From positions 8,804,001-8,868,000 of the forward strand of contig NC_068569.1 in NCBI RefSeq assembly GCF_025698545.1: a stretch of DNA of 64,000 bases. The letters run 5' to 3'. The stretch's first letter is position 1. Every line of letters starts with the position of its first letter. Positions 23,680 to 51,300 of this stretch are shown one piece after another. This stretch comes from Gossypium raimondii. Taxonomy: Eukaryota; Streptophyta; Magnoliopsida; Malvales; Malvaceae. The notes below the pieces were generated by a model. It made no database searches, was not told the DNA's origin, and saw only the letters and a program-made list of their open reading frames with translations. Made by a program: the position numbers and the translations under genes.

Positions 23680-25472
23680 ATCTCAAATTTTCACACAATC
23701 AAATATCAATGTGTGCCAAGGAAAGGAAAAGGAAGAATAAAAAAAGAAAGAAATTGTGTTTGTGTGATGGTTGATTTCATGATCATGACATGTATTTGAA
23801 AGAGAAAATTAAGACGTGAAGGTGACAAAATAATAAGCATATACAGAAGTGAGGGAAAAGAATATAATTAATGACTAGTAGAAGAAAACTAATGTGCCAA
23901 AGGAATCGGCCAAGTGATAAAGTAAAGCATAAAAGTATGATAAGCTTTCATGGTTGGTAGGGTATGTTTGGTTCACCGTAATTTATGTTTCTCTGCAAAA
24001 CAGCTTACACTGGATTTTGCTTGCCTAGGGCACATGAAATTTGATCTTGAACTAGATCAATGCAGATCGCTTTACACTGAAATGAGATTTCTTTTTCTTT
24101 TTAATTTCGTCCTTTCTCCCTTTGAGTGCTTGCATTTGTCATGGACACTCAATTATCTATAAAGAAATCATGGCAGATGTATAGTTTAACTGAACATTTT
24201 AAGCACTATTAGTTTACGCGAAAAATAGAGGGCATAAAACAACTAATTACCATTGGTCTTAAATTTTGAAGAAATCAACAATTCAACGATGAAATCAAAC
24301 TTGCGAAATGTTATTTAATATTGATTTAGTAGTTGTTAATATAGCAACGGTAAAAGTACTACGGACACCCTTGTCTTAGTAGTTAAATTGTATTTTGCCC
24401 CCTCTACTAAAAAAATAAGTAAATTAGTCAACGTATGTTAGATCAAAGAGTAAATTGATCCTTTTATTGAAAATTTCACCCATTTTTATTGTTAAAAACC
24501 GGTCCCTGTATGTCAGCATAAGATACATGTACAGCCATGTCATTGTTTGATTATTTCGTCAAGACTCATTTGCCTATTTTTTAAATATAGAGAGCAAAAT
24601 ACAATTTGACTCCTCCTATAATAATTTTATCATATAACAATATATATAACATTTTTAAACGTTCAAAATCTGAATAATTTACTGTTTCTGAGTTGTTTTA
24701 AACTCATTTTTTATGGATTTTGGAAAGGGCCAATGTATGAATCCCCAGATATGTTATGAGACTGATGTTGTGCAAAATGAAAATGAAAAATGGAGAGGGC
24801 AGTGTAGAGGATGCAGCCTCTATATTCAATGATTACTTTTTTTCTGCTTTCTCCAAAGCTTTTTAGTTGTTGTTTTCTTAGCCCTAGCCACTCCAAATAT
24901 TTATAAACTTAATCCTCAAGAAGCAAGCCAATGGAGAATATAAAGATTTTACAAAAATTTCCATAAACAACTTCCATTTCTTCCGTTTTCTCTTTATATG
25001 AAAACTTTTAGTTGTAATTTTAAGATTTTAAAACTTTGTAAGCATTTACCTTTCACATTTTCTCTTTCAATTAGAGAGATTAGAGATTTTATCTTAATCT
25101 TTGTAAAATACTTTAATGAGATTGTAAAGATTATATTTTTTCAGGTATTAACTTTGCCCAGTAAAACTAAGATGCAAGCAAGCTAGTCTAAAACTTTATA
25201 ACTCTTCTAAAAATTTTAAAACACAGAATTCTGACAAGGGGTGTTTGGTAGGATAAAAACTAATAACTTTCATACAAATTTAGTTTTGGAGAGTTATTCC
25301 CAAGTTTACTTCTTTCTTTTTTTTCAGGCTTAATTAAGTTATACCCATTTTCCAAATAGATACTTAAATTTTTTTCATCAATTTGGGTACTCGAATTAAA
25401 GGGTCAATTTAGGTAATCAAATTAAAGTTTAGGTATTTGTAAAATTATAAACACATGTAGACTTTGTTGGGC
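23680..25472. other. Intergenic region upstream of MLO
   Basis: Includes the MLO promoter and leader (nearest part) and one MITE-like element (24350-24622). No gene was recognised in the remainder. The short open frames at 23950-24162, 24711-24896 and 24998-25186 have no similarity I can name. Confidence 0.5.
24350..24622. mobile_element. MITE-like inverted-repeat element
   Basis: Left end words TAGTTAAATTGTATTTTGCC then CCTCTACTA reappear, reverse-complemented, at the right end as AGTCAAATTGTATTTTGC then TCTCTATAT. The centre holds the words GATCCTTTTATTGAAAATTT and GGTCCCTGTATG. The element is about 270 bp and non-coding. Boundaries are approximate and no target duplication was identified. 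Confidence 0.5.
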
Positions 25473-25852: not shown

Positions 25853-28680
25853 TGTAGAGCCCAATTTTTGCCCGGGCCCAGTGCCAAAATAAAACAAAAT
25901 AAATAAAACAACAGTAGCCCAAATCTGACCAACCCAATTCTTGACCCACTACCTAAAAATTAACCCAGCAAGCCCAAATTAGCCCTAGCCCAAAACTAAG
26001 AAACTTTTCAGCCAAGGGAAACCCTAGGTGCGCCGCACCTAGGTCTGACCCCTAGCCGCCAGCCTCGTGCACGTTGCCTCTGCTACCAATCGCCACTCGC
26101 GCACGCCACCGGCCTCCATCGCGCATGCTACCACCACGCGTCTGACACCCCTATCACCTGCAACATATAGCAAACAACACACAAGCACTAGAAGACAACT
26201 GAAACAACAAAAAATAGAAGTTCAGCAGTTTTAAAGATTTGGCTATATAAGCCGAACACAGCCATTGTAATCTTCTTCCTTTTTTACGAACGCACATTAG
26301 AAAATAGAAAGTCAGAAATTGAAATTCTAAAGGTTGTTTTTTTTAGAACTGTTCTTTCGTTTTTTTATATAGTCTTTTTATTATTCTCTTTTTTCTTTAT
26401 TAATCTATCTTAAAACACTAAGTAAAGATAAGGAAAAAGAGGAAAGAAATACCTGAATCAGCCCCTGAAGCCGTCGTCGTCGTCGGCCCTTCGCCGTCGT
26501 CGGACGCGAGTTTAGAAAGGGGTAGAGGCGTTCCATTTTCCCCTCTTTTCCCGGTTTTGGAGCCTTGGCCTCTGAACGCGCTCCAAAGCGCTGGTGGGAG
26601 ACGCCCTCGCATGGCTCCGGCCACCAAGCGGTGAGGAGGGACGACGGCGGCTGGGCCTGGAACCCAAGCATAAAAGGGGAAACCTCCCTTTTGTTTTTTC
26701 AGTTTTCTTTGCAAGAGAGTGAAACGGCAGAGGGAGTAAAATTTTTGCTTTTATTGTGATGAAAACGGCGCCGTTTAAAGGGGAGACCTGCGCACTTTGC
26801 CCTAGTGGGTTATTTGTGCTTTTGGTCCCTTTAATTCTGCGACACGTTCCATGTAGCCTTTCAATTCTTTTAATTTTGGCCGCATAATTTTTCGTCCGCT
26901 CCAATTTAGTCCGCTCATAAATGCTGCGCTTCAGGACTTGGGCATATTTCCCGATCAGTCCTCCGTACTTTGCGCGTGCTTCATTTCAGTCCCCCAGCCT
27001 TTAAGTGTCTCGTTTTCAGCCCCAAATCATTTTTTTATTTGCGATTCGTCCCCAAATTTTAATTTAGTTTTCAATTTAATCCTTTATTTGTTATTTTAGT
27101 TATTTTATCATTAAATTAATTATTTTAATATTATTATTACTATTACTATTACTATTACATCATTATTATTATTGTCATGATTTGCTTATTTATGTCATTT
27201 TTAGTTTCAAATTTTGTTGTATATGTACATACTTACATTTTGTCATATATATACATACGTACATATTATTTTAATTTATTTGTATATATATTTTTATACT
27301 TATATATTATTTATATACCTTATATATATACATATATGTGTACACTTATATCCATACGTTTTTATAATATATATATACATGCATACATTTCTACAACATA
27401 TACATATGCACTTTTTTATTATTATAAAAATACATGAATACACATATTCTTATATCCTAGATATCTCATATTTTTATATACATTTATATATATATACATC
27501 ATCATACATATTTTTATATTTAATGATTTTAAAATATGTATACATACATAGATTTTTCATACTTTCATAATTTTGTGTACATTCATGTATGTACATTTTT
27601 CATCTATTCGTTATTTATTTATTTACATTTTCATTATTATTTAGAAAGAAGGATTCAATTTTATTTGCCTATGTACTTGCCACTTTGCATGTTATTGATT
27701 GGTCCCTTTTATTATCTTATTTTCGTTGCCATTACTCGCGTTATTTTTATGCCATCATATTCATTATTGTTTTGCTATACATATTTTACCATACATCAAA
27801 AGAAAAGATTTTCTAAATAAGACAATGTTTTGCGTTTGGAAATTCGAGAAAACGTGTCCTAACGTGCTAGGTTTCGATTTCTCGTTCGACCAAATAGCCA
27901 AATATCATTTTAAGATTTTTTAAATAGGGAAATATTTTGCGTTTGGAAATTCGAGAAAACGTGCCCTAACGTGTTGGGTTTCAATTGTTCGACCAAATAG
28001 CCAAATATCCTTTTAAGATTTTCTAAATAAGGCAATATTTTGTATTTGGAAATTCAAGAAAACGTGCCCTAACGTGCTGGGTTTCGATTTCTCGTTCGAC
28101 CAAATTGCCAAATATCATTTTAAGATTTTTTAAATAAGGCAATATTTTGCGTTTGGAAATTCGAGAAAACGTGCCTAACGCGCTGGGTTTCGATTTCTCG
28201 TTCGACTAAATAGCCAAATATCCTCTTAAAACTTCAAAGTATGGTTTCGTTAAACTATAAGGTGATCTTGGTTTCGATGGTTTAAAGTATCGTGTCCTAA
28301 CGTGCTGGATGCGATATTCCTTCGGAACAAGAGAATCTTATATTTCAATTCATGTTATCAGAGTTTTTTTTAAGGATCGTATTTTTAAAACTTTCAAAGT
28401 TTTTAATTTTCGACACTAAGACACTAAGTAATCAACTAGGTGTCAATTTTGGGCGTATCGAGGGTGCTAATCATTCCTCGTGCGTAACTGACTCCCGAAC
28501 CCGGTTTTCTGAATTTTGTAGACCAAAATCGTTGTTTTAATAAAAATTAAATCGTTTATTAAAATAACCACTTTTCGAGGTGACCCGATCACACCTCATA
28601 AAAAAAGATTGGTGGCGATTCCCATTTTCGTTTTTATCCAAGTCGATCCCGTTTTTCATCAAAAAAAAATGGTGTCAACA
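25853..28680. mobile_element. Solo LTR of a large LTR retrotransposon (2.83 kb)
   Basis: The element begins TGTAGAGCCCAATTTTTGCC and ends AATGGTGTCAACA, i.e. canonical TG...CA ends. It is flanked by a perfect 5-bp target duplication, ATGAC, at 25848-25852 and 28681-28685. There is no gag-pol inside, so it is a solo LTR left by LTR-LTR recombination. The interior is a patchwork: a GC-rich stretch (about 26000-26660), an AT-rich ATACATA-type low-complexity stretch (about 27220-27600), and a 107-bp tandem array (27805-28229). Length and ends suggest a Ty3/Gypsy-type LTR, but the lineage is inferred, not shown. Confidence 0.88.
27805..28229 (+). repeat. Four-copy tandem repeat, about 107 bp, inside the solo LTR
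   Basis: Units start near 27805, 27912, 28015 and 28122 (spacing 107, 103 and 107). Each begins AAGATTTTYTAAATARG and contains TTTGGAAATTCRAGAAAACG, then CTAACGYGYTRGGTTTC and TTCGAC-AAAT-GCCAAATATC. A partial echo of the CCTAACGTGCTGG word recurs near 28288-28308. The third unit is the shortest because of a small deletion near TTCAATTGTTCG. Confidence 0.85.
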
Positions 28681-29339: not shown

Positions 29340-32300
29340 ATGGAATCTCTCTCAAGTTCAGTGTTCATCTCTAATGTATCTGAGTCACACCCTTTTCTCC
29401 ACACCCACTCACTTCCCTCTCCACCTTCATCATCATCGTCTTCTCCTTTTTTGATCAAAGGGCCAAACAAACGAATTGAGTCTCTCAAATTCAACGCCGA
29501 AACCTCTCACTCTCATGGTTTTCGTCTCCACGCTTTATCTCGCGAGGTTCCCGATGAAGGTGAGGGCCAGCCGCAGCCTCTAACCCTCAATGTTGGGTTT
29601 AGCTTTGTTTCTGAGGAGGATAGTCTTTCTGTATCTCAGGTAATCTGAATAACTCCGTTCTCGCTTTGCTTTTTTGGATTTCTCTGCTGTTTGCTTATTT
29701 GGGTTCTTTTTAAGTTTTATATTTATGTAATGTTTGCTTCGTTTACTCTATAATTTGTGTAAGCACATTGAGAAAGATACATGAGATGAGAACCTCTCTA
29801 ACTTTTCATTTGATTTGATAGAAAAGCAAACTTACTGTTTTTGAGTTATTTAGAAAATAGCAATACAATTTTTGGGTTTAGCAAAAATGTAGGTTTTACT
29901 TTTTCAATGTTATGTTTGAATGTTTCTTAGATTTGAACTCTTGAAGAAATTCGAAAATTTAGAGGGACTAATGCAAGGGATCGGTTGAGGGTTTTAAATT
30001 TTTCAAGGGTGTGGATGTTACTATAGTTTATGATCTTTGGACCCTTTTTTTTTTTTCGTTTTTGGTTGTCTTAGAGACTTGTTGGATGTATCAAGTGGCT
30101 ACTTCAGCTTGGTATTGATAGTCTCTCTTATATTCTGAAGGGTGATTCAGATCAAAATGGAAGCACCGAGAAGGATGACGATAAATTAACAAAGGTTGAA
30201 ACCTCTGTCGTAGCTCCTCATAGTAGTGGAGCCACTGGGGGTACAAGAGCTGGGCTTTTCAGAACCCCAATATCTGGTGGAGTGCAGAGTGCAACTTCAG
30301 CGCATGGATTACCCCGACCGTCCTTAGCAGTCCGTAATCTGATGGAACAAGTAAAGGCTATTTTTTGAGTTCTAAATATTGTCATGTCTTGATAAAAATA
30401 ATTTGATCTATTCTCTTTCTTTTTGTCTCTTTTCCAGTTTTGCTATAATTTAATAGTCCTGTATTTATTGGCCTCTGTAATTTAAGGCTAGATTTGCTCA
30501 TTTATGCACTGTAATGTCTCGGATGCACCACCGACGAGAAGGGTATCCCTTTGGCTCTCTGGTCGATTTTGTGCCTGATTCAATGGGCCGTAAGTAGTTT
30601 ACTTTTGAAGTTCTGTTAGTTGTTTATGCCTTCTTTCCACCATAAATGTTTTATCAGAACATTTGTTAAACTTTCTTGGTTTCTTATATTATTGTTATTT
30701 TGAAGTGAAAGAGCCTTAATAACTATGTGTTTATCCTTTATGAAAGTAGCAGACTTTCTTTGCCTATAAGTAGGACAGCTGTGTAAATGGAAGTTGGTTT
30801 TTGTGTATAATTTGTTAGATTATTTGATATATCTTTGTCTTTCAATCTGCAGATCCAATATTTTCATTTTCTCCATTGGCTATCCATACGCGGAATTTAT
30901 TAGCAGACCCTAGATGCACCCTTGTTGTGCAGGTTAATTGTTTTGATCCTTTTGCTCTGATGGAATATCTTGGTTGGTTATTGTCCACTTATCAAAGTTG
31001 GATTTATAGATACCTGGATGGAGTGGCTTATCAAATGCAAGGGTAACGATATTTGGCGATGTCTACCCTCTTCCTGAACATCAACAGGTGCTTGCCTAAA
31101 TCCCCTTTTCTTTCTGTTTTTTGGTTGTGGAAAAGAGACGGCCAGGGGGGGGGGTTCCTAGTTCATATGATGCTTGCTAAAAGAGATTAGGACTTCCGCT
31201 TTTTACTTCATGGGCTCAGGGCATTGCTTCAAAAACGGCTGTAGAGAGCAAGGTTCTCCTCCCTTGGAGTCTATCCTATAGCTTGTAGAGGATGTCTATT
31301 TGGAGGATTCGATTTCCTCACCATTGAAAGAATGCATACTTTTGGATGTTTTCCCCTTTCTTCTCTTTGATCACATGTTTAAAGGGTATTGTTTATCTCT
31401 AGGTTCACTAAATGTCTTCCATTATATGCATTGTGCATGTCTGTAGAATTTGTGCCTAAAATACGCCTCACCTTGGATTGGTTATTTTGCTAGGAATGGG
31501 CTCATAAACAGTACATAGCGAAACATCAACAAGGGCCATCACAACAGTGGGGGAATTTCTACTACTTCAGGATGCAGAACATAAGGTCTGCTTTGTTCTA
31601 TAGGATTTCTTATCTCTGGTCTAATGTTTCCTTCTTAGAAAGCCTATAGACTAATTCTTTGTGCATTGCATCTTATCTCTGACCTTTTTTTCTTGCTGGT
31701 GCTTTCATTTGGAAACTGCTAGTATCTATTATACAGTCATGCACTTATAATATTTAGTAGAGTTTAATTTGTTTGGGTGCTGAGGGATGGGTTCTTAGTT
31801 TGGTTGCCAGTGTCTTCAAGCTAGCAGTTGCTCTAACTTGCGGTGTCCTAGTCATTTGTTAATGAGATAAAATGATTTCCATATATGACTGCATTTTTTG
31901 CTCTTAATGGTCTTTTATTTATAGTTAATAGAAAATGATCTGTTTTCACTGAATTTAGAAATCAGTGTTCTTGTTGCCTAGCTTGTATGTTTAGTTTGTT
32001 GTTCTACTAAGTACTACCCCAAGGTTTGGTTGAACTGAAATTGGTTCAACATGGAGAAACAAAGAAATATTTCTGGTGTGTACTTTGATTTTAAGTTTCA
32101 TCGTCTTACTAGTTACCTTAAGACACTTGGTTTCTATGTAACATATGAGACCATGTAAAATAACCGTGCTTTTGGATTCAGAAGTCTGATTAGTTGTGGG
32201 ATAAAAGAAACCAGTTAATTAACATTCCCCTGTTTTCTTTGATTTTTTTTCCTTTTTACGTAGTAGTTACATTATTGTTGTTATTATTATTTTGAATCTT

Positions 32301-33021
32301 TTGTACTTGATGTAAATTTGTCGTATAATCCACACAGGGAAAATATTTATTTATCAAAATTTTTTTCAGTGACATATATTTCATTGGAGGATTTGGCACC
32401 GTTGCATGGGTTGATGTAAAGGAATATGAAGCAGTTAAACCAGATAAGATTGCTGTGGATGGTGGTGAACAAAACCTGAAGGTGAACATTTTTAATTCTT
32501 AGAATCTCAGTTTTCCTCTTCTAATTTGCATGGATTATATGTTATCCTATGTGCTTCATTCTTCTTTTCTTTTGAAGATCTAAGTCTACCAATTGATTTC
32601 TATACATATGCTCTTATGAAGTTTGCCAATAGGCCCTATTTTCCCTGGCTAATTTGGGTTTCATTTGCTTCTACCGTAGGAATTAAATGCAACCTTTTCA
32701 AAGCCTCTGAGGAAGCTGTTATCAAAAGAAGCTGAGGTTGATGATGCAGCTCTTATATCAATAGACAGCAAAGGAATTGACATCAGGGTCCGTCAAGGTG
32801 CACAGGTATTGATTATTTTGGAATGTAAAGTCTGGATTTGTTTGGAGGTGTAGGTATTTTATATGCCAGTTCCTATATAAATTCTATTTTATGCCATTTT
32901 TCAGTTCAACATACAGAGGTTATCATTTGAAGAAGGGCAAACTGTTGAAACGTTGGAGGAAGCCAAAGCTGCTTTGTGGAACGTAATAAAGAAAGGTCAA
33001 GTGCAGAATCTGAAGAAATAG
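29340..33021 (+). CDS. Pyridoxamine 5'-phosphate oxidase-like FMN-binding split-barrel protein, plastid-type
   Basis: Member of the plant PNPOx-like/HugZ-like split-barrel family (recalled as At3g21140/At1g51560). The family shares the FMN-binding fold, but true PLP-oxidase activity is not implied. Nine exons, 29340-29639, 30141-30350, 30487-30589, 30853-30932, 31010-31087, 31494-31585, 32370-32481, 32680-32805 and 32905-33021, total 1218 nt and 405 residues, all in phase. The first about 60 residues are Ser-rich (SPPSSSSSSPFL), a likely chloroplast transit peptide. A variable linker follows. The split barrel runs from about residue 170 to 325 (MSRMHHRREGYPFGSLVDFV, FSFSPLAIHTRNLLADPRCT, GWSGLSNARVTIFGDVYPLP, YFIGGFGTVAWVDVKEY). 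A C-terminal domain of DUF2470 type follows (DAALISIDSKGIDIRVRQGA, FNIQRLSFEEGQTVETLEEA). I start at the ATG at 29340; the frame opens further 5' but only from a non-ATG codon. Confidence 0.9.
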
Positions 33022-33522: not shown

Positions 33523-33690
33523 TTATGAGTTCAATTTTAATTTGGTTCTCCACATTTCTCCAATGGCCTTTGGTGCCGGATCAGTTGGCCCTTTGTCTTG
33601 CTGCCCTGATGTAAAATACAGCCATCCTTGCCAAAACCCGACCAGTGTGGTTTTCACCCGGTATGGGAGTTTTCCAATCACCGACCACTT
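33523..33690 (-). pseudogene. Kelch-repeat gene remnant: terminal exon
   Basis: The minus strand encodes an intact 55-residue C-terminal exon plus TAA: KWSVIGKLPYRVKTTLVGFW, GWLYFTSGQQDKGP and IGEMWRTKLKLNS. This matches the end of galactose-oxidase/kelch-repeat proteins such as Arabidopsis At1g51540 as I recall them. A GAG acceptor precedes AAG at 33690, giving phase 0, which is exactly what the penultimate exon requires. That penultimate exon (34682-34884) lies on the opposite strand, so this exon cannot be joined to it in one transcript. Confidence 0.85.
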
Positions 33691-34084
33691 CTCTTAAAGC
33701 AGTATCACAAACATCAGACCTTATAAAATAATTTGAAAGAACACGGGAACAATACCCTGTTGTTTAGTGCAAAGAACAGACAGAATGTAGTGTCATATTA
33801 TGAGGTTTCACACGTATCAATTATATACAATGATTATCATGTCTTCTTGATGCAGTAAACTCGAAAGTGAACCATACAAAGTCGTCGTCCCAGTTAGATA
33901 GTTGAGTCCCAGATTTAAATGCAATATATTTAATCAAAGACCTTTTACTAATTAAGATGGAAGTGCGTATGGGAAATATCTGAATTCTAAAATGCAATCA
34001 ATATCGTAAGGAATTGACTCAAAAGCATGTACATTCCTCGTGTAGTCTCACCTAAACTTCGTCTTTCAAATGTCATTAATGTAG

Positions 34085-34190
34085 GGCCTGTGTTGTGTTT
34101 AAAGGTCGTCTTTATGTTATTGGGGGCCAGGAGGGTGATTTTATGGCTAAACCTGGATCACCTATTTTCAAATGCTCCCGAAAGAATGAG
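34085..34190 (+). pseudogene. Kelch-repeat gene remnant: inverted internal exon
   Basis: A plus-strand exon between a TAG acceptor and a GTAAGG donor. It encodes ACVVFKGRLYVIGGQEGDF and AKPGSPIFKCSRKNE, the kelch repeat that should follow the PIPRGGPHR exon. Its phase (one leading base completing an Arg codon) matches the two-base overhang of the minus-strand exon ending at 35823. The frame itself is intact, but the exon points the opposite way from the rest of the gene. Confidence 0.85.
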
Positions 34191-34681
34191 GTAAGGAGGA
34201 CATTTGTGTTTTTCTTGAGAGTTCTCTCGATTGGCCTTTTTAATAATAGTATATTATTTTGTTGGTCTGTTTCCTTTAAAGCATTCTATATCATTCTATG
34301 TTTGTAATTGGCACGTATTCATGTCCTGCATGTTGATCTCTTTTCTTAAACCACAAGCTCTACTGATATTATCAGCAATATTGGCAAAATAAAAGTATGC
34401 TTGCTATGCTGTTTCCTCTGTCCTGTGCACGTATTCATCTGTGAGTATTTTATGATACATGATAAATGCGATGTGATATAATACTGTGGATAAATGGGTT
34501 TAACTAACTGATTGATTATATATTTTACAAAATGTGTTTCAAACTAGACGATGTAGGTTCTGTCTAATGTCAGGTTATTGCATCTCTACCGTTCTTTGCT
34601 AAATTTTCTATGAATAATATCTTTTCCTGTAAATATATATATAGAGCCTTAAAATTAACTTATTTTCTAATTTTGCTTCAG

Positions 34682-34884
34682 GTTGTATTTGGTGATGTTT
34701 ACATGTTGGATGACGAAATGAAGTGGAAAACATTACCTCCTATGCCAAAGCCTGATTCACATATTGAATTTGCTTGGGCAATCGTTAGTAATTCCATTGT
34801 TATTGTTGGAGGCACAACACAGAACCTGCAACGAAGAAGATGGTTCTGGTTGGAGAAATATTTCAGTTCAATTTTGATACACTG
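34682..34884 (+). pseudogene. Kelch-repeat gene remnant: inverted penultimate exon, frameshifted
   Basis: Reads GDVYMLDDEMKWKTLPPMPK and FAWAIVSNSIVIVGGTTQN in one frame, then ATKKMVLVGEIFQFNFDTL in another. The exon is 203 nt where phase-0 borders demand a multiple of three, so one base is missing at about 34825-34832. It lies on the plus strand, inverted with respect to the terminal exon and the 35823 exon. A TA dinucleotide run (34929-34962) and a GTAT run (35275-35300) follow in the former intron. Confidence 0.85.
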
Positions 34885-34924
34885 GTATTATCTTCTTATC
34901 TTTGTACAGTTGCGTAAAGAAGAT

Positions 34925-34928
<4 letters not shown>

Positions 34929-34962
<34 letters not shown>
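34929..34962. repeat. TA dinucleotide microsatellite
   Basis: About 17 uninterrupted AT units inside the inverted kelch segment. Its proximity to a rearranged junction is suggestive, but not proof of a role. A GTAT tetranucleotide run lies at 35275-35300. Confidence 0.9.
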
Positions 34963-34965
<3 letters not shown>

Positions 34966-35980
34966 TGTTTATGCTTATACTCACATAGTTTGGATGATTT
35001 GCGTTCTATTCTATTATCCATACACACGTCTGCAAAAAGGCATGTGTACGTAGTTATGCACAGAGCACCCCCATGGCTGCCCACACATGTCTCAAGTGGA
35101 GTTGCTGCTGTTATTCAGCATTTTCTAGCTTATATTTGAGGAGACTACAATCTTCAGCCTAGTAGTTTTCACATTTGGCTGAAAGCATCACTTGGTTTTA
35201 TTTTTTGACTGCCAGACTTCATTGCTTTCCCTCTATTACTAGTGCGGGTCATTGTGCACCAAGTGTTAAACACGAGTATGTATGTATGTATGTATGTATG
35301 CATGCATACACAACTGAAATCAACATGCTATTTTATTGGCTCCCAAAAACAAATAGATGCTCGTATGATATGACGAAAGCAGCCTTTTAATAATCAATGT
35401 TTACATTGCTTGCTTTTTCTAAATTAGATAATGAAATTGTGTTCATGCAATATGTATTATGGCTTAAAGATATAAAGAAAAACACATTAGAACAACATAT
35501 CAGCAACTGAAGATTAAAATTAAAAATTTCTAACACCCCCACATGATATACAGCATAATTGCAGTGATGCCATCCTGAAATTAACTATTGTCTCAATTTG
35601 CTTTACATACCATTTCATTAATGGTAAAAACTAAATCTGCATGTATACATCTGTTCGGATTTCTATAATACAAAAATGTATAAATCATCAAGAGAAGATG
35701 CTATGAATTCATAATCCAAATGTATGACATTGTAATCAAGAACATGCATCCAATTCCAAAAAATTCACAAAAAGAATAATCAATCAACTTGCAACATATA
35801 AAAGCAATATTAGAGAACACACCTGTGAGGTCCCCCCGTGGAATGGGTATTTCACTCCTCCACTCCTTTTCTAATGCTTTCCCATCCTTTACAGCAAGAC
35901 TCCAATGCTCTAACCCAGGTCTATGCCTATTCTCCTTGCTGCCATCCATCACATGAAGTCGACCTCTCCAAAGTGGCTGG

Positions 35981-36599
35981 TGTTGGAACATTTTCAAATA
36001 TTTATAGTGTTCCAATAACTATAAATGAATGGGTGTAATTAATCAAAAGTTATATTATTTGATTTTTTGAAAAAGAATTATAACTATTTAAATAATATTA
36101 TTTGAATAGTTATAATATTAAATGAATAATCATGTGTTTATTTTAAAGATATTATTATTCAGAAAGATACCTATTGATGAAATATGTCTCTATGAAGAAA
36201 CATGAAAATTCCTATAAATAGGAATGAGATTTCATTTGGAAAACACACCAACAAATTCTAATATTCTTTCTTTTCTTCTTTCATTTTCTAATATTATTAG
36301 ATTATTTTATAAAATATTACTACAGAAATCCTTTATAGAAATTGAGTTTCTTGTCATACATTGCTCAGTGTGTAGTGGGCTATTCTTCTCAGTTCAAAAC
36401 GCAAATAGTCATTGGCTTCATTGTATCCTCGAGGTTAATTTGCTTGGAACTTATTTGCACACCGAAAATAGGTGGGGGCGAATATAACCTTAAAGATAGT
36501 GACTTGATACACGCCTTGGAACTTTGTCCTATTTCTTCTTTTTCTATTCGAGTTTCGTTCGTGTTTCGAGATTTTCTTCACCGGAGATTTGTACTAACA
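35981..36599 (+). repeat. 5' LTR of the Copia element
   Basis: 619 bp, TG...CA. It is paired with the 3' LTR, differing by scattered substitutions and a few small indels (for example extra bases in the GATTTTTTGAAAAAG segment). A TATA-type word (CTATAAATAGG) lies near 36215-36225 and is the likely transcription start zone; the 3' copy reads CTATAAATATG. Confidence 0.93.
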
Positions 36600-39500
36600 A
36601 TTAATTTAAAGTTATATAATTCATGATGACTACCACAACACTTGAAAGTGGAATACTAAGGGAGTTGGCTTCCAACTTTGTCAAACTTAATTGGTTTGAT
36701 GGTGGCAATTTTATCAACTTTGAAGATTGTTTATGTTTTGGATACTCCAAGACCTGAAAAGAATGATAACGAATCGTTGCTGCAACCCGAGAAAGACAAA
36801 AATGGGACAATGCTGATTACATGTGTATGGGCCACATATTGAATGGTTTATCTGATGGCTTGTTCGACACCTACCAAAACGAGGTCACCACTAAAGAATT
36901 ATGAGACAAATTGGAGACAAGATACATGACCGAAGATGTTACAAGTAAGAAATTTCTTGTCAATCGTTTCAATAATTATCAAATGGTTTATGGTCATTCT
37001 GTTATGGAACAATTCTGTGATATTGAAAAGATGCTGAATCAATTCAAGCAATATGATATGAAAATGGATGAAATGATTGTTGTATCCTCCATAATAGACA
37101 AACTTCCTCCATATTGAAAATACTTTAAAAGAAGTCTAAAACATAAGAAAGAGGAAATATCTCTTGAGGCTTTGGCAAATCATCTTCGTATTGAAGAAGA
37201 ATATCGAAAACAAGATCAGAACCTAAATTCTGAAAATGCCAAAGTGCATGTTACGAATGAATTATAGACTACAACCATTCAAGAGAAAGTTTAAACAGAC
37301 TGATAGAGCACCTAAGTTCAAAAAGAAACAAAATGGACCATGCTCTCATTGTGGAAAGCCGGGACATTTCAAGAATGAATGTTGATTTTTAAAGAAGAAA
37401 TATCTTCTAAGGCTGATAATAACAAAAATTTCGTTACAATGATATCTAAAATTAATATGGCACAAGATGATAATATATGGTGGATTGATACCGGAGCAAC
37501 CAAATATGTGCGCAAAGACAAGCATGTTCACAAAGTTCACACAATGTGAAAATGACAATGTCTTGTACATGAGAAATTCTTTCACCGCAGCAATTAAAGA
37601 CAAAGGGTCTATTGAACTACAATTCATTTCTAGAAAGGTTTTAACCTTAAATGATGTATATTATGTACCAGAAATTAGAAAGAATTTAGTGTCTAGAAGT
37701 TTGTTGAATAAGTTTGGTTTCAAACTTATTTTTGAGGCAAATAAGTTTATTTTGTCTAAGGGAGGAATTTTTGTGAGGAAATGGTATATGTATGAGAGTA
37801 TGTTCAAACTCAATATTATTAATAAGAATAAAAATACTGCTTCTACTTATATGGTTGAATCTTTTGTTTGTGCCATTATAGATTAGGTCATTTGAATTAT
37901 AGAAAATTGAATGACATGTATAAGTTAGATTTAATTCTGTTTTTAATAATAATATTGAAAAATACAATACATGTATGTTGACTAAAATTACAAGAAACCA
38001 TTTTCCTAAGGTTAAAAGAAAAACAAAATTGCTTGATTTGATACATAGTGATTTATGTGACATGTATAATACTCCTACATTAGGTGGAAAGAAATATATT
38101 GTTACTTTTATTAATGATTGTTCTAGATATTGTTATGTATATTTATTGCATTCAAAAGATGAAGTGCTTGATAAATTTAAAGTTTATAAATCTGAAGTTG
38201 AACTTCAGTGTGAATCATTTATCTAGTGCTTAAGATCGAATAGAGGTGGAGAATACTATAATCCAAGTTATTTTGAATCCACTGGAATTGTCCATCAAGT
38301 TTTAGCCCCTTACACACCACAACAAAATGATGTAGCTGAAAGGAAAAATAGTCTTGACTAAAATGGTAAATTCAATGTTATCATATTCAAGTCTTGGACA
38401 AGGTTTTTGGGGAGAAGTTGTTCTAACAGCTTGTCATATATTGAATAGAGTTCCTAATAAGGAAATTAAAATAACCCCCTATGAACAATAGAAGAAAAGA
38501 AAACCAAACCTTAATTATTTGAAGGTTTTGGGTTGTAGAGCTATTGTCAAAATTTCAACACCTAAACGTAAAAAGTTAGGTGAAAGAGGAATTGAATGCA
38601 TATTTATAGGTTATGTACATAATAGCAAGGCATATAGGTTCATGGTAATTGAACCAAATGATTCAATTTCAATTAATATTGTTATTGAATCAAGAGATGC
38701 TATTTTTGATGAAATAGATTTAATTCTATATCAAGACGATTACAGCCACAACAATTGATTCATTCTTCAAATGAGAATGAGATTCCATTGGAACAAATTG
38801 ATAATAATGATGAATCTTGTGAAGAATTAGAAAGAATTAAGAGGATTAAAAAGGTCAAAGATTTTGGACTAGATTTCATTATGTTTCTTGTAGAAGGAAA
38901 AGGTGAAAGTATATGCAATAAGATACCTTATTATTATATTATGGAATCTGATCCTATTACATTCGAAGAGGCAATGAAATCTGAAGACTCTGCTTTTTGA
39001 AAAGAAGCAATAAATGATGAGATGGATTCAATAACGGGAAATCAAACTTGGATCTTAGTTGATCTTCCACCAGGTTCCAAACCAATAGGTTGTAAATGGA
39101 TCTTCAAAAAGAAAATGAAGGTCGATGGAACCATTGATAAATTTAAAGCAAGGTTGGTAGCCAAAGGTTTTACACAAAAATAAGGTATTGATTACTTTGA
39201 TACCTATGCTCCAGTAGCAAGATTCGCTACAATTAGAATCTTCATATCACTTACCTCTATATATGATTTGGTTGTTCACCAAATGGGTGTTAAAACTGCA
39301 TTTTTAAATGGTGAATTGGAAGAGGAAGTGTACATGGAGCAACCGAAAGGATTTGTTGTTCCAGGACAAGAGCATAAGGTATGTAAGCTTCTTAAATCTT
39401 TATATGGACTTAAACAAGTAGCAAAATAATGGCACCAAAATTTTGACAAGGTTGTTTTAGCTAATGGCTATAAAATAAATGAATTCGATAAGTGCATATA

Positions 39501-41042
39501 TAGTAAATTTGAAAATAGAAAAGGTGTCATAATTTGCTTATATGTAGATGACATGCTCATTTTTGGCACGGATTTGGAACAAATAGAAAATACAAAGAAA
39601 TTCTTGTCAAACAACTTTGCTATGAAAGATATGGGTGTAGTAAATGTTATTCTTGGGATTAAAATAACTCGAGATGAAAGCACTATAGCTTTATCACAAT
39701 CACATTACATTGAAAATGTGCTTAAAAAGTTTGACCTTTTCAACTATATACCAGCATTTACACCCATAAATCCTCAAATAAAATTAGTATCTAATGCTAG
39801 TAAGAAAATTGATCAATTGAAATATGCAAGTCTAATTGGTTGCCTTATGTACATAATGACTTGTACAAGACTAGATATTGCATATGCTGTTGGAAAATTG
39901 AGTAGGTACACAAGTAATCCCAGTAGTTTGCATTGGAAAGCTTTGAATAGAGTACTTAGGTACTTAAAGAAAACTATTAACTATAGATTGTGTTATAATG
40001 GATATCCTCCAGTTTTAGAAGGGTATTCGGATGTTAGTTGGATTACAAGTTTGGAAGATCGTGCTTCTACTAGTGAATGGATCTTCATTCTTGATAGATG
40101 AGTCATTTCTTGGGGTTTCAAGAAACAAACATGTATTACTGATTCCACTATGGCAGCAGAATTTATTGCATTAGCCGCTGCATGTAAAGAAGCAGAATGG
40201 TTAAGAAATTTGCTTTATGATGTACATTTATGGCCTAAGCCAATTTCACCTATTTCTATCTGTTGTGATAGTGAGGCTACTTTAGCAAAGGCATATAGCC
40301 AAGTATATAATGAAAAGTCTAGACACATTAGATTAAGACATAGTTATGTTCGACAATTAATCTCTAATGGAGTGATCACTATTAATTATGTGAGGTCAAG
40401 TGAAATTTTGGCGGATCCTTTAACAAAAAGTCTTGCTAGAGATGCAGTAAAAAGGACCTCAAAAAGGATGAGACTCAAGCCCATTAATTAGAGTCACCCA
40501 TGATGGAAACTTGACTCAACGCTTGGTATAACATCAAGTCTTGAGTTCAATGAGACAAAGTACATCATTAGTATGTGACTGTTAGTACTATAAATAAATC
40601 CATCCTAAGATTAAAGTGCTAGGTACCCATAATGATAAGGGAAGGATGAGTAATGTACACTTAATGGACCCATAACATAAATATGTTAGAGTGTTATAAT
40701 TACGGGAACACTCTTGATGGGATCTACCTATGTGAGTGGAAGTGTGACCACTTCTAGGAGCTCAAGAGCTTGGCTCTGACAGCACTCATGAAAAGAAGAC
40801 ATAGACACATGGTCATAATAGTGTCCCTAGATACTATGCATTGACCAATGTTGAAATCATTGTGTGAGATGTGTTCGGCTAATCAAATGGAATAGTTAGT
40901 TCAAAGCTTAGTCTACCATGCAATTTCGATTAACTTTAACATGTTTTCACTAAGTGAAGGTTCAATCGTAAGATACCTTCATTTATGTAAATTGATTTTC
41001 AAGAATATCAAAATCTAAAATATTTTGAAAATGGAGGGAGAT

Positions 41043-41657
41043 TGTTGGAACATTTTCAAATATTTATAGTGTTCCAATAACTATAAATGAATAGGTGTAA
41101 TTAATCAAAAGTTATATTATTTGATTTTTGAAAATGATTATAACTATTAAATAATATTATTTGAATAGTTATAATATTAAATGAATAATTATGTGTTTAT
41201 TTTAAAGACATTATTATTCGAAAGACACCTAGTGATGAAAGATGTCTCTATGAAGAGACATGAAAATTTCTATAAATATGAATGAGATTTCATTTGGAAA
41301 ACACACCAACAAATTATAATATTCTTTCTTTCCTTCCTTCATTTTCTAATATTATTAGATTATTTTATAAAGTATTACTGCAGAAATCCTTTATGGAAAT
41401 TGAGTTTCTTGTCATACATTGCTCAGTGTATAGTGGGCTATTCTTGTCAGTGCAGAACGTAAATAGTCATTGGCTTCATTGTATCCTCGAGTTTAATTTG
41501 CTTAGAACTCATTTGCACACCGAAAATAGGTGGGGGCGAATATAACCTTAAAGATAGTGACTTTATACACGCCTTAGAGCCTTGTCCTATTTCTTCTTTT
41601 TCTATTCGAGTTTCGTTCGTGTTTCAAGATTTTTTTCACCGGAGATTTGTACTAACA
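41043..41657 (+). repeat. 3' LTR of the Copia element
   Basis: 615 bp, with the same ends as the 5' LTR, immediately after the purine-rich tract ending at about 41041. Followed directly by the GCTGG target duplication and then the resumed kelch exon. Confidence 0.93.
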
Positions 41658-41669
41658 GCTGGGGCATAC

Positions 41670-42425
41670 CTGAAAATACTCATGTGCATTGCCACTTAAA
41701 CCACAAAAACTTCAGTAGATGTATAATATCTACATAAAAAAAAAAATAAAAAAGCAAGAAAAACGGGTTAACAAGGCAACATATCCAAGAAGAGGAAAAA
41801 ATGAAAAGCGAGGGAGAGAGAGAGAGAGGATAAGACAACCAAAACTATAGTTAGAATTGCAAAATAGCACTGAAGTTGAACCACAAACTCAGAGGGTCAA
41901 TTTTATAAATTAATGATAAATATGCAATTTATTGTTCTATAGGATTGTTGAATAAGCAGAAAAGAATTGTAGCAGATCATCTCTTTCGTCATTAGATACT
42001 CGACAAATTATACAGACATATGAAGCAGAATTGAAAGCAAAGAACAAAGGAAACTCATCAAACCAATAAAAAAGCAAGATACAACTTACACAAAATGATA
42101 GTAAAACAAGTAGTAGAAACTACATTGCACAAAATCATTTTTCTTTTCCACAATTCAGGTTAGATACATTAAACAGAGCTCACACATGTACTAATCTAGG
42201 GAAAAATGGAGTCCGAGTAATAGAACTGACAAGCAACTATAAAGTGTTATACATGCAAAAACACCCAAACAGGCAGAATTCTGAATGAAAGTTCAACTGT
42301 TTTTCCTTCAAACATCTTTATCACTCATTTTATGCAGACAAGGTTTCTCTATGGAACAACCTACTGTTTACCCATCATAATGCACATGTAAAGTGTAGAC
42401 ATTAACACTTATAAACTTACACAGT
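41670..42425. other. Remnant kelch intron between two retroelements
   Basis: It starts right at a TTTTCAG splice acceptor for the split kelch exon (minus strand) and ends where the second Copia element begins. No coding similarity was seen. It carries a short GA run at about 41811-41829. Confidence 0.5.
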
Positions 42426-42860
42426 TGTTGGAGTTTTGCAGCAAAAGAAAACAGAAAACAATTGAAGCAAAACTGAATAAGGAACTTTGCAAAAATAATT
42501 GAAAAACTTCATCATCATTTTCATTCAAATTTTGAAAATATATGAGAGTTGCACAAGTAATTGGTCAGTTACCTAATAGTTAACTGCTCCCACTTAATAC
42601 ATAAACAAAAACTAGCTTAACTTGTACACAAAAGAAAGTTGACATATCAGCTATTACATCAATTCAAATCATAAAACATATTCTACTAACTTTGCTATCA
42701 CACTACAAAGGGACTAAACAAAGTTACATAGGAACAAAATAATCAAAATATGTTGCTACATTCGGACCAACTCCATTTCTGCACTTTAAAATAGAGTTGC
42801 TACTAGTGTTCTGCTAAATAGTTGCTGGTCTTTTATTGCAACGCAGGCCAAAGTTTAACA
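42426..42860 (-). repeat. 3' LTR of the truncated Copia element
   Basis: 435 bp. On the minus strand it starts TGTTAAACTTTGGCC after a purine tract (AAGGAGGAG) and ends CTCCAACA. The TAA stop of the RNase H frame is formed by the LTR's own first bases. The five bases beyond it (ACAGT, 42421-42425) cannot be matched because the other end of the element is gone. Confidence 0.8.
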
Positions 42861-43482
42861 CTCCTCCTTGGACTGTATGCAACAAACACCAATTTTTTTT
42901 CTCAAAGTTTTAAACCTGGTAGCTCCTAATGGCTTGGTCAAAATATCAACCAATTGAGTTTCTGAGCTACAATGAACAAGACTAACTTCCTTCGATTGCT
43001 CAACTTCTTGAACAAAATGGAACTTAATTTTAAAATGTTTAGTCTTACCATAAAAGACTGGATTCTTGGCTATGGCAATTGCTGATTGATTGTCAACCTT
43101 GATTTCAGTTGGTTGAGTTTGTTCTTCATTTAAATCGCACAAGAGTTTTCTAAGCCAAATGGCTTGATTAACAGATGCAGCAGTTGAGATGTATTCTGCT
43201 TCAGCTGTAGATTGAGCAACAGTTTGTTGTTTCTTTGAACTCCAACTGAAAACACTAGAGCCTAAGGTGAAAAAATAACCCAATGTGCTTCTCATGTCAT
43301 CAACTAAACCAGCCCAATCACTGTTAGAATAACCAACAAGCTTTATCTCCTCTGCCCTTCCAAACTTTACACCAGAATTAAAGGTTCCTTTGACATATCT
43401 TAATACCCTTTTTGCAGCTTTAAAATGAGCAACATTACAGCAGTGCATTAACTTTGAAAGAAGGGTAACAGTGTATACAATA

Positions 43483-44019
43483 TGTAATACCCCGAAAATC
43501 TTTACAGTAAAATATTATCTTTGATATAATAAAATAAGAAAATAAAGCGTCAAAAAGGGGAAATTTTGGAGTTATGTCAACATTGGGTCGTATATTATGA
43601 CATATTAGTTCAAGAAAGGATTAAATCGTAAAAGTGAGAAAAGTTTTATTGCCCAAGAGTAAATACTCAAAAGTTAAGGGGTTAAAGTGTAAATATGAAA
43701 AGTTGAAGGACCAATGGTGTAAATATTTTAAGGGTGGAATGATCTAGAAACTAAGAAAAATGGATGGATTAGGACCAAATTGAAAAAGGTGAATAAGTTT
43801 GAGGGACTAAATCACAATTTTACCAAATTAAGTGATGACTCAAGATGGAATTTTAAAATATCATAAAGGGCAAAATGGTCAATTAGAAGAGAGAGAAATC
43901 TAGAAGATAATGATGATGTTGGAGATATTTTAGATTAATTAAATAAATAAATATTAGTTTATTAATATTTTGGTTTGATTTTTAAATGATATGTTATTAT
44001 TTTATTATTTTAATATTTA

Positions 44020-44060
<41 letters not shown>

Positions 44061-45849
44061 GAAAGAAAGAGGAGAAGGATAAAACCCATCATCTTTTCCA
44101 TGCAATTCACGTTAGAAGAGAAGAGAAGAAAGAAAGTTTTACTTTCTTTACAATTTAGTCCTTCCACCAAAAATTCATCATTTTTATCTAGAAATCAAAA
44201 GAATTTACATATCCATCAAGAGAGAAAGATAACAAGGAGACTATGGGGAGCTAGAATATCAAGTTAGATTCAAGAAATAGAAGCTGGAGGAGAGAAAATC
44301 AAGTTAAAGATTGAAATCAAGATGACAAGGTAAGTACATCAAGATTTTAATATATTTTAAGTTTAATATTATTGAAAAAGCATGGAAATGATGTTAATGT
44401 AAAGTTTTTGTATATATGGTCCTATGTTCTTGATATGTTAGTGAAGAGAAAATAAGAGAAAGTGATGAGAAATAGTGTAGAGAAAGAAAATAAGGATGTT
44501 ATAACCATGGTAATAAACATCTTGCACTAAAATGGTTTTGGACAGTAGCAGTGGGCTCACTTTGAAAAATCACCATAAATTATGAAAATTGAATTAGAGT
44601 ATGAATAAATATGGAATTAAATATTATTGAGTCTAGTTTCTCATAAAATAAACTGTGTAAGTAATGAAATTGTAAATTATGAGATATAATAAATTTTGTG
44701 AGACAAGGTCAGAATGAATTCGGGTTCCCCTGTTCTGACTTGGAAAAATCATTAAAAATTATAAAAAAAATAGTTATGGGTTACAATTTATATGTTTAAA
44801 ATTATTAATGAGTCTATTTTCAATAGAAACAAATGGGGACATCATCCGAATTCTGAACAAAGAGATAATTAATTTTTAGTGAAGAAGGGTCGGAATTGTC
44901 AGACAGCAGAACAAAGGTGACTTTAAAGAATAAATTGTACTTATTGGCTGAACCAAAAATTCTGAAAATTTTATGGTAAGAAGGTATGTGAGTCTAGTTT
45001 CAGGTAAAATTATTGGATCCTAATTTGGAGTTCCATAGCTCAAGATAAAAATAATTTAGTGGCTATGACTCAAATGGACAGCTTTGAATAAATTTACAAG
45101 TAAATTGTGAAATCATAGATAATGTTACTTATAAGCATGTATTATAAATTAAGGATGTGGAATGGAGAGGAGGAGGAGGAAAAAAAAATATATATATGAA
45201 TATTCAGTTAGCATGGATAACTTGCACGTTTTAGACTCGGGGACTAAATTGAATAAAAGTAAAACTTTAAGGGTAAATTTGTAAAATGTCAAAAAGTGAC
45301 CAAATTGCATGAAATGAATTGTTTTATTATTTAAATTAGTAAATGGAATGAAATATTAATTTAGATCAAGATTGGGTGAAAAGTTGAGAAAAATAGAAAA
45401 CTTCCAAAATATCCTTGAATTTTGGTATTTACGCAATTTAGTCTGGTAAGCTCGAATGAGCTATATTCGTAATAATTTTAATTGAAATGAATTCTATTTG
45501 GTAATGAAAATTATATATATGTGTGTATTATTATTGGAATTAAATTATTATTGGTAATATGTATAATTACTTGATACATTTAGTGATTATCTAAGCTAAA
45601 TTGAGTTGGAAGCTTGTTGGAGATATATCATAGTATCCATTGGTTCTATCGGTAATTTTGGATGATTTGATTCTGGTTATAATGGCATGTATAAGTTAAA
45701 TTGGTTAACGTTAGCTCATTAATGTATTGATTTTGATTGGTTATAAATATGAATGCTAGATAAAAATGAAATGTCTGAAAATTAATTAGTAAACTCCGGT
45801 AATGCCTCGTACCCTATTTTGGTGTCGAATACGGGTAAGGGGTGTTACA
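43483..45849. mobile_element. Nested solo LTR (2.37 kb), probably Gypsy-type
   Basis: Begins TGTAATACCCCGAAAATC and ends GGGTAAGGGGTGTTACA, with a perfect 5-bp target duplication CAATA at 43478-43482 and 45850-45854. Removing it and one CAATA restores the Copia frame across the junction (minus strand LTATRLDIVYTVTLLSKLMH), which proves the order of events. There is no coding sequence inside; a TA run lies at 44021-44057. TGTAAYACCCC...GGGGTGTTACA ends are common in plant Gypsy (Tekay/Del-like) LTRs; that lineage is my inference. Confidence 0.9.
44021..44057. repeat. TA dinucleotide microsatellite
   Basis: About 18 TA units inside the nested solo LTR. Confidence 0.9.
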
Positions 45850-47270
45850 CAATATCTAGCCTTGTTGCTGTCAAATAGAGTAAGCAGCCAACCAAACTCC
45901 AATATCCCTTTTCATCCACCCGGTCATGCTCACTAGTGCTTGACAATTTTTCTCCCAATGCAACAGGTGTGGTAACAGACTTGCAATTTGACATACAGAA
46001 TTTTCTCAGCACTTTCAGTGCAAATGTTTGTTAGCCTATGAAAATACTTTGAGCTTTTTGATTTACCTCCATACCAAGAAAATATGTTATTAAGCCAAGA
46101 TCAGTCATTTCGAACACTAATTGCATCTGCTTCTTAAAATTCACAATCAGCTCATTTTTACAGCCAGTAAGTAACAAATCATCAACATATAAGGACACTA
46201 TCAGTAAAGTCTTTTTTCCAGCCTTCTTGACATAAAGAGTAGGCTCACTGATACTCTTTGTGAACCCGAGCCTTGTCAAATAGCCATCTATCCTATCATA
46301 CCAGGCCCTTGGAGCCTATTTTAGGCCATACAATGCCTTCTTGAGCTCGTAAACTTTATGTTCTTCACCAGGGATCTTAAAGCCTTCAGACTGTTCTATA
46401 AAGATTTCTTCTTTGAGCCATTTAAAAAAGCTGATTTGACATCCAAGTGATGTACCTTCCATTATTTTTGAGCTGCTAAGGCAAACAACAGCCTTATGGT
46501 ATCCAACCTTGCAACAGGTGCAAAGGTTTCAGAGAAATCGATCCCTTGCTGCTGACTGTACCCTTTTACAACCAATTTGGCTTTGTGCTTGTTCAAGGAC
46601 CCATCTGCATTATTCTTGGTCCTGAACACCCATTTGACACCAATGATCTTTCTATTTTCAAGCTTATTAACAAGCTCCCAAGTATCATTCTTGTGGATCA
46701 TTCTCAGTTCAGCTTCCATAGCTTCTTGCCAGCAACTCTCTTTTGCAGCTTCATCATAACAGGAAGGCTCCACCATGGTTACAGCACACCTTTCATATAT
46801 GTTTGCTAATGTTCTGGTGCCTCTAACAGGTACATCATCATAACCATCTTCAGCTACTTCTTCGATTTCACCCTGCTGCAAGTCCAGGTCATTTTGATTT
46901 TCATCAAGTAGACTTGCCTCGATTCCTTCCCATTTCCAACAGTTTGCTTCACTGAACTTAACATCCCTGCTCACCACAATCTTTTTAGTTAGTGGATCAA
47001 AGACTCTATATCCCTTCTTTACACTGTTATAGCCAACAAACACCCCTAGCATGGACCTCCTTTCCAACTTAATTCTTTTCTCTGCTAGTACTAGTACATA
47101 ACACAAACAGCCAAACACTTTCAGGTGTGAGACAGATGGTTTCTGTCCAAACCAGGCTTCAAAGAGCGTTTTGCCCTTGACTGCATTAGTTGGTAGCCTG
47201 TTTTGTAAGTAAACGGATGTGTTTACTACTTCAGCCCGAAAAATACTAGGCATTTTAGCCTCAAACAGAA

Positions 47271-48325
47271 AGCTTACCTCTTAAATTTTAGCCCCAAAAA
47301 ATTTTACTTTCATGATATCCAAATTAACTCTTAAATTTTAATTGGTACTAAAATAGAAATCTTAATTTTTGAGTTGTATCTAAGTCAGTATAAAAGTAGA
47401 CTATTTATTGTCCTTTAACATTTAATGTTATATATAAAACTGATGTTGATGCGTCTTTTTTATACCTTGTTCTTTCCATTTCACTGGTATAAATTTGGAA
47501 CTTCGATAGGTTTATCTTATCAATAAGATTGCTTGCGCGTGGTTTCCAGTGTCACATCGTTGTTTTGATTAGAAAATGATGGTTGAGATTCAACATCAAA
47601 AATTTAATTTTATCCACTACATTAGTTGACTTAATATAAATATATAATTAAACTGTTTTTCTTCAAGGGAAATATATAGTAGCCCTCCATGAAGGATTCA
47701 GCTCAGTTTTGGGAAGATTGATTAAATCGATTTTTTATTCTTTTAAACTTATTGAACCCACCAACTGCACAGCTCGAATGATGATTGATAAAGACATTCC
47801 TCCTCCTTCCAAAGAAGTAGTAATAATGATGATGATGAAACCAGACCGATGCAACGCAACCAAAAGAACATCCCAATTCTAAGTGGTAAAAAGGAAACAC
47901 TGATATTTTACACAAATTACCAATAAGAAATTCAATCCAAAGTCATCAATGGATCAAACTGAGCCTGTCATTTTTGCAAACAAAACTTAAGGTAAAACAG
48001 TCCATCTAGATAGAAACAACGAATATACTTGAATACCTTGTTAATGTTTTTTTTTTCTTTTCCCTAAAACCTTGACAAACACAAAATCCCCAAGTGCACG
48101 AAAGCCGATCAACCCCCACGACAACACCGTTTGAACCCTACACCATAAAACCAACAGCAAAGAAACCTGGAAAAAGCTATACACCGAATTAAAAGGTAAG
48201 AGAAGCTGCCAGCCTCTCTCGTGTTCATCGTTTGTCCTTGCCACATCCCCAAAATATTAATAGAATAACAAGGGAAAAAATATAGTTTTGTAGCTGAAAA
48301 AAAAAAGTTTACAATGCACATGCTA
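47271..48325. other. Spacer between truncated Copia and membrane-protein gene
   Basis: Includes the 3' region of the gene ending at 48326. Nothing else was recognised; in particular no kelch 5' exon and no second LTR. Short minus-strand frames near 47703-47915 and 48041-48363 have no similarity I can name. Confidence 0.5.
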
Positions 48326-51300
48326 CTAAACAGGTATGGCATCGTTATTTGACGTGTCTTCACATCTCAATACAATACCCTCGAGGCTAGCTGGGAAGAT
48401 ACATTTGGGCCATTGGCAACCAGTTGCAATGGGTTCAGGCGGAGGAACAATCATAAGGACATTGTCGTTTCTCTGAACAACTCCCATTACGCTAACCGTG
48501 CTTCCTTCCTTGATATACCTACATAAATTTGCAATTTCAGAATAGGTTACAACATGATGAGAGTTCTCCCAAATTCATTCAACTATGGTATCACATATGC
48601 TTACAAGTTAGAGCTACAATTGTTCTTCGACCTCCAAGCACCCCAACGAGGTTGTCACAATTTAATTGAAAATGAAATTTTCAAAAGGTACGAAGTGTCC
48701 ATTCAATATTGAGTCAATACATAAACATTGTAACCTCAGCCACAAAACAAACACAGGTCTACATTGTATTCAAAGCTCCAACCCTAACCGAAACAGCCTT
48801 CCTCTAGATTTCTATATTATTTAATTTTGTAATTACAGTATAGACTTAGAGGAATGGTAGATCAAATGAACCATAAATGAGTAGGATGCTGCTGCATAAA
48901 ACATAATACACACACTTGACATCAGTATAAGCTACATGTACATCTTTATGCTAGGGCTTAGAGGTGGCAATTGAGTGGGTTCAGGTTATTTCAAGTTTGG
49001 AAGACAATTTCAGGCTACAAGCCATTGGTCAAATAGAGAGACCCATTTACTGCTCCTGCAACATAAGCACTTAATATCAAGGCAGAACTATAAATAGGAG
49101 AGAAATTTACCCTTCTTTCAGTCGCATTAATCGGTCATCACTTGAAAGGTTCCTTTCTCCCAACCACCTCATGAACTCGGGAGATAATGTTTCGTTGGCT
49201 GGGTTGACATCTATAACAATTGAGTCGTCCACATAAGGAGTCACAACTGCTCCATTGCCTGTTTTTACTAATGCTCTCAACCCAGACTGGAAATCGGAGA
49301 TGTAGAAGTCAACAGCACGCCTCTGTCGAAATGACATACAAAAGGTTAATATTCAAAACAGAAAGAAGGCTGGAGAACATTACTAATCCATGTTACTTTG
49401 ACTCTTCATTCTTTTAAACCTATGTCTGACACTCGCATCAACATATTTCCAAACATGAGTATATGGGGATATGAACCACTAAATACATGGAAACTTAGAA
49501 AAAACATTGAATATGCACGTCAGTCACATACTCGTACCAAACAGTTACACCCGAGTCCGAGTAACATAGAAACTGAACTAAAGAGATGGGGAAAAACAAA
49601 CAGATCTTTTCACATACCGCATTTATATAATTAGACGACACCAATACAAATTTTGGCCCATCTGCCCAACTACAGCTATAACCAGAGGGCAATGTACCAT
49701 TTCACATCATAGTAAGCCAACAAAGCCATAAAAGATTTTCTTAAAAGTTCAGGAGAAGATAATAAAAATTAACAATTCAATTACTCACGTCCAACAATCG
49801 GAGTCCCCAGGTAAAACGACGATGTTTAGGATTGGCAGCTTTGGAATCCCATCCTCGATACTCATATAAACTAGTTGATGTATAAACACATCTTGGAACT
49901 TTCTGGAAGGATGACTCAAGAGGAACGTTCCCACATGTTACCACCTTCAAAAATTACAACCAAACGATTAATCAGTATCATCTACAGATTACAAGTAGAT
50001 CAAATTAAATGATTCCAACAAAAAGCACAAGTACACAAACATACGCAACCAGTAATTCAATTCCCACTAGTTGGAAGATGTTCAGCAGTTACACGGGATC
50101 GTATGTGCATAAAACAAATGATCTTGTATTTGGACATGGTTTTTGATACAATGAGGCGCTTAAACCCATGGTAACCAATAAGACCTTGAGTTGGCAAATT
50201 GACATCCACTTGAATTATATACTTTACTTTGATAAAATATCATACTTCAAACCATATAGAATTTCCTTCTCTTTGCTCAAAACAAGTCATGTGAGTGGCT
50301 AAAAATTACCAAGTGAAGTTAATTTATTGCTAACTCATGTACTAAGACGTGTCGAAAAAATAATACTCCTACAAAATGTAGGATAAATGACCAAACGAGG
50401 CATTAATATCTCATAATCAACTACATTAAAGCCAGTTAAAGTATTTCAATCCTTCTAATAAACCAAATAATATCTTATAAACTTCTCTATGATCCGTATA
50501 TAAAGATTCAACAAGATTTGATGATCATCATCAACAACCTAATGAAACACCTGTCCTTAATCTGGCTTAGGACTGACTATAACAAGGAACCCTCAACAAA
50601 GCCAGTTTTTTCATAGTGAGAGGGGGAAAAAAGAGACAGGATTCAAGGAAAACATTGGATAATTTAGGATGTTCATGTGATTATAGATTTCAATTTTCTG
50701 GTAGAAAATATGAAAATATCATATCTGAACAGAAATTAAATCACTTACCCCGGAGATTTTCACGAATTGCCCATTTTTTGCATTTCTAAGCTCTGCATCT
50801 GGATAACCAGCAATGAAACCCATAATAGCTGTTCTCCCATAGCAAGAGTTCCAAGCAAATAATGCAGCAACAGTACCAAAAAGAACCACAACAACGATGA
50901 GGAGAATGGCATTGTGAACCGCTCCAAGAATAAAACCACCAGCAATGAAACCCATTACAAAGAGCAGTATCAGTGCATATAATATTAGTTTGGGGAAGTT
51001 CCTCTTGAAAGAAAAGTCGTCATTTTGGCCAAGAATATTCACAGCCTGATTATGAACTACAGCAGAACCTTTGACTTTCATTGATCCCATAGATTCCAGA
51101 GGACCAGACACTTTCCGAGGAGCACCGGAGGAATTTAGTGGCCCAGAGGAGATGGGCCCAGATGTAATAAGGCCAGTTGCAGGGAGAACAGGAATTGGAC
51201 CAGAATTTTGACGTCCACTTGGTGTCACTCCACCAGATTGTGGACCGGATGATTTCTTCGCAGGATCCCCATGTCTATTTAGTGGTCCAGAGTTTGACTT

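Follow-up and report, generated by a model that had tools for sequence, protein, structure and literature searches.

A kelch-repeat pseudogene of Gossypium raimondii in which a 1277-bp internal segment was very probably inverted in place

The window analysed here is the whole stretch of 64,000 nucleotides, C5:8804001-8868000, and searches beyond it covered a genome of 750.8 Mb in 281 contigs. It contains the remains of a gene with four recognizable kelch exon pieces, all of which were found where the first-pass annotation had placed them, on the strands it had given (Table 1). The two outer pieces, exon A and the last exon, are encoded on the minus strand, while the two middle exons, mid1 and mid2, are on the plus strand. 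Joined together, mid1 and mid2 exceed two Pfam cut-offs (Kelch_6, 26.8 bits against a cut-off of 25.3; Kelch_1, 24.7 against 20.1). The last exon and the exon A piece, searched singly against the Pfam kelch profiles, reached no cut-off, and none of the 97 genomic matches of the Kelch_1 profile fell inside the window. We assign the gene to the plant kelch-repeat genes typified by At1g51540. It resembles that type in the Pfam-positive middle exons and in the collinear exons of three homologues in the same genome, and differs from it in an apparent internal inversion, in frameshifts, in being split by a copia element and in having no upstream exons within reach.

Table 1 Features of the kelch locus in window coordinates. 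"Inside" and "outside" refer to the putative inversion; C10 is the homologue on contig C10; z values are relative to resampled controls.
Feature	Coordinates	Strand	Remarks
Last kelch exon, with stop codon	33523..33690	-	Outside; 87% identity to C10
Intron c, 3' part, before last exon	33691..34031	-	Outside; weak, z 3.3 to C10 intron c
Putative inverted segment	34032..35308	+	1277 bp, each end ~+/-8 bp; best flip tested against C10
Intron a, 3' part	34032..34084	+	Inside; z 22.0 to C10 intron a
Kelch exon mid1	34085..34190	+	Inside
Intron b	34191..34681	+	Inside; z 12.6 to C10 intron b
Kelch exon mid2	34682..34884	+	Inside; 4-nt deletion
Intron c, 5' part	34885..35308	+	Inside; z 8.6 to C10 intron c; TA tract 34928-34968
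Alternating purine-pyrimidine (GTAT/GCAT) tract	35276..35312	.	37 bp; contains right breakpoint 35308/35309
Intron a, 5' part	35309..35822	-	Outside; z 37.0 to C10 intron a
Kelch exon A, 3' piece	35823..35980	-	5-nt and 1-nt deletions; cut by copia element
Ty1/copia element in exon A	35981..41657	+	LTRs 35981-36599 and 41043-41657; RVT_2
Rest of exon A (first few codons) and upstream intron	41658..42105	-	C10 similarity ends at 42105

The last exon, used as a genome-wide query, returned four loci, namely the window and one locus each on contigs C10, C9 and C4. The two middle exons returned eight matches, two at each of the same four loci; only the best candidates were scored in both searches. 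At each of the three other loci (C10, C9, C4), all exons that were matched are on a single strand in a single collinear order, as judged with a query whose first ~125 residues were taken from background knowledge. The claim that the window exons become collinear only when the middle is flipped holds against these homologues. Ks was 0.61 between the window copy and C10 and 0.50 between C9 and C4, as expected of two old duplicate pairs, which presumably date from the cotton genome multiplication. The C10 homologue (~G000:C10:217756-223560) shares the exons and alignable introns of the window copy, and its junction phases (2, 0, 0) are the same, as the match of splice phases asserted in the first-pass annotation would have it. 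In contrast to the window copy, it is collinear and open in the four exons compared and retains two upstream exons. A processed pseudogene was ruled out, since the introns of the window copy are retained and can be aligned to C10.

The pseudogene is neighboured, in tail-to-tail arrangement, by a PNPOx/CREG-like gene (29340-33020), the last exons of which have their sole other genome-wide match at C3:25748638-25749578 and none on C10. Upstream of the pseudogene, a gene at 48323-53429, which we take to be SHOU4-like and which has no Pfam match, corresponds to C10:219616-229776, on the other side of the C10 kelch gene. The order of the kelch gene and this upstream neighbour is swapped between the window and C10, implying that rearrangement took place more than once, in one or the other of the copies. 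The swap could not be polarized with C9 and C4, where neither neighbour gene was matched in ~20 kb of flanking sequence on each side. A second copia-like remnant, on the minus strand at 42855-47253, has a first reading frame without a Pfam match and is apparently interrupted at ~43480-45865 by an element that, by eye, starts with TGTAATACCCC and ends with GGTGTTACA. A short MITE-like repeat (24349-24518) is matched nine times, in both orientations, within C10:227333-242978, and at ~27800-28300 a unit resembling TTTGCGTTTGGAAATTCGAGAAAACGTG is, by eye, repeated imperfectly several times.

The window copy is a pseudogene with several lesions besides the inversion, a point that the first-pass annotation had missed. 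Exon A ends at 35823 on the minus strand as claimed there, but 35980 is not its true other end, because a copia LTR element begins at 35981 inside the exon. This element is flanked by a 5-bp target duplication (GCTGG at 35976-35980 and 41658-41662), and its LTRs are identical at 583 of 615 sites (K2P 0.054), which at rates of 1.3e-8 and 7e-9 corresponds to ~2 to 4 million years. Relative to C10, the exons carry three frame-breaking deletions (5, 1 and 4 nt) and one of 3 nt that keeps the frame. The upstream exons of C10 were found neither in the window, where the search yielded one weak match (E 0.019) within the mid2 kelch repeat, nor in the following 10 kb. The window kelch copy has neither an open frame nor a complete gene, and its product is not expected to be functional.

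The extent of the rearrangement was mapped against C10 by flipping 396 breakpoint pairs on a coarse grid, followed by two refinements around the best pair. With 34032-35308 flipped, the alignment score rose to 1351.8, compared with 571.4 for the unflipped window, and 1808 of 2332 aligned bases were identical (1662 of 2267 unflipped). The 25 best flips all scored at least 1344.2, with ends at 34024-34035 and 35302-35313. The size of 1277 bp agrees with the ~1-2 kb suggested in the first-pass annotation; the intron intervals to which that annotation assigned the breakpoints (33691-34084 and 34885-35822) contain ~34032 and ~35308, and the microsatellites it noted in the flipped segment are present.

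A direct comparison of C10 with the window gave ten matches with E <=0.001, nine of them within the gene. Read in C10 order, these nine run from 42105 to 41757 (two, minus strand), from 35982 to 35306 (three, minus), from 34028 to 35170 (three, plus) and from 33722 to 33521 (one, minus), following the window with exactly two strand changes, at 34028 and 35306. The tenth pairs C10 sequence ~1.2 kb past the gene with 33523-33489 (minus strand, E 5e-4) and alters nothing. Weaker matches were left out except that at 41679-41658 (minus strand, E 0.002), which represents exon A past the copia element. Across the second joint, the spacing is 455 bp in C10 (7907 to 8362) and 138+309=447 bp in the flipped window.

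The introns provided a control free of exon sequence. Five intron pieces were tested in either orientation against each of the three C10 introns (a, b and c), each with 100 Markov-resampled controls. Every piece gave its highest score with the intron and orientation expected for it, one with a weak value (z 3.3); the other 25 of the 30 piece-intron-strand combinations gave z values between -1.3 and 2.1. The weak piece, 33691-34031, scored 36, under the top of its 100 controls (37); the last-exon match to C10 extends into intron c as far as 33722. Both breakpoints are intragenic, and at 34032 and 35308 the separated intron parts fit together, with the same reservation for the one weak piece.

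We compared the two breakpoint intervals for inverted repeats. The longest exact inverted match between them was 9 bp, within the 8-12 bp obtained for 60 resampled pairs, and no imperfect inverted pair joining the intervals was present among the 25 of 52 pairs listed. One alternative on which this bears is that the 1.3-kb piece was misoriented during assembly and that the true gene is collinear. Since the intervals share no inverted match above chance, the sequence beside the segment offers no evident cause for such an error, and 281 contigs for 750.8 Mb suggest a long-read assembly; we regard misorientation as improbable.

The same comparison bears on how a real inversion would have formed. 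A review (PMC7093584) names both end joining and ectopic recombination between repeats as mechanisms of inversion, the latter as one of the usual ones, and homologous recombination between inverted repeats in both introns, for example MITEs, would be a case of it. Repeats could since have been lost; the lack of an inverted match above chance nevertheless speaks for breakage and end joining over repeat recombination, to which we assign a slim chance. Least probable of all, and hardly credible, is that mid1 and mid2 derive from another kelch copy, inverted tail to tail, whose remainder was lost: plant genomes commonly hold tandem and fragmentary copies, but here the minus-strand copy would have had to lose the same two exons in complementary fashion, the interrupted introns are made whole across 34032 and 35308, a query of the window gives each exon once, and no second kelch copy with flanking exons of its own was found, the last-exon and middle-exon queries both returning the same four loci.

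Taken on its sequence, the kelch pseudogene very probably underwent an in-place inversion of 1277 bp of its interior, presumably through end joining of breaks in introns. In such an event, double-strand breaks would have occurred in two adjacent introns, one of the breaks falling within an alternating purine-pyrimidine tract, and end joining would have put the segment back in reverse orientation. The inverted piece would comprise mid1, mid2 and intron b together with parts of introns a and c. No normal mRNA could be produced from the inverted allele, because its middle exons would be antisense in the transcript. The window has six alternating purine-pyrimidine tracts of at least 20 bp, including the one at the right breakpoint (35276-35312). 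As 98 of the 938 positions in the right breakpoint interval lie within 5 bp of such tracts, the association of tract and breakpoint is at best suggestive and may be coincidental.

Ka/Ks between the window copy and C10 was 0.11, a value low enough to suggest that selection maintained the gene through most of its history as a duplicate and that its loss was a late event. Over 200 of the 217 codons, 17 synonymous and 15 non-synonymous changes were assigned to the window branch and 14 and 8 to the C10 branch, with 30 left unpolarized; one extra window change was scored as a stop, which we regard as an artefact of two changes falling in one codon. Non-synonymous changes were not significantly enriched on the window branch (Fisher p 0.58, or 0.42 counting the stop-scored change). 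A bolder, and in our view doubtful, scenario is that it was the inversion, triggered by breakage in the possibly Z-DNA-forming tract, that inactivated a duplicate on which selection still acted, and that the copia insertion and the deletions came later. If true, the locus would be a clear example of duplicate loss through an intron-to-intron microinversion.

An intragenic inversion is already in print for an HLH gene of Triticum urartu and polyploid wheat, in text of PMC5144955. Like the kelch case, it lies inside one plant gene and takes exon together with neighbouring intron sequence. As described there, the wheat inversion covers one exon and two introns, was validated by junction PCR and was placed in time between species; the kelch inversion, by contrast, would cover two exons of a gene that has otherwise decayed, and was mapped by sequence comparison. 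Standard annotation would probably split a locus of this kind into separate fragments. The kelch pseudogene adds one data point on the loss of duplicate genes and on breaks near alternating purine-pyrimidine tracts, leaving the general picture unchanged, and would represent a small plant intragenic inversion of which both breakpoints could be placed to ~8 bp by means of a duplicate in the same genome.
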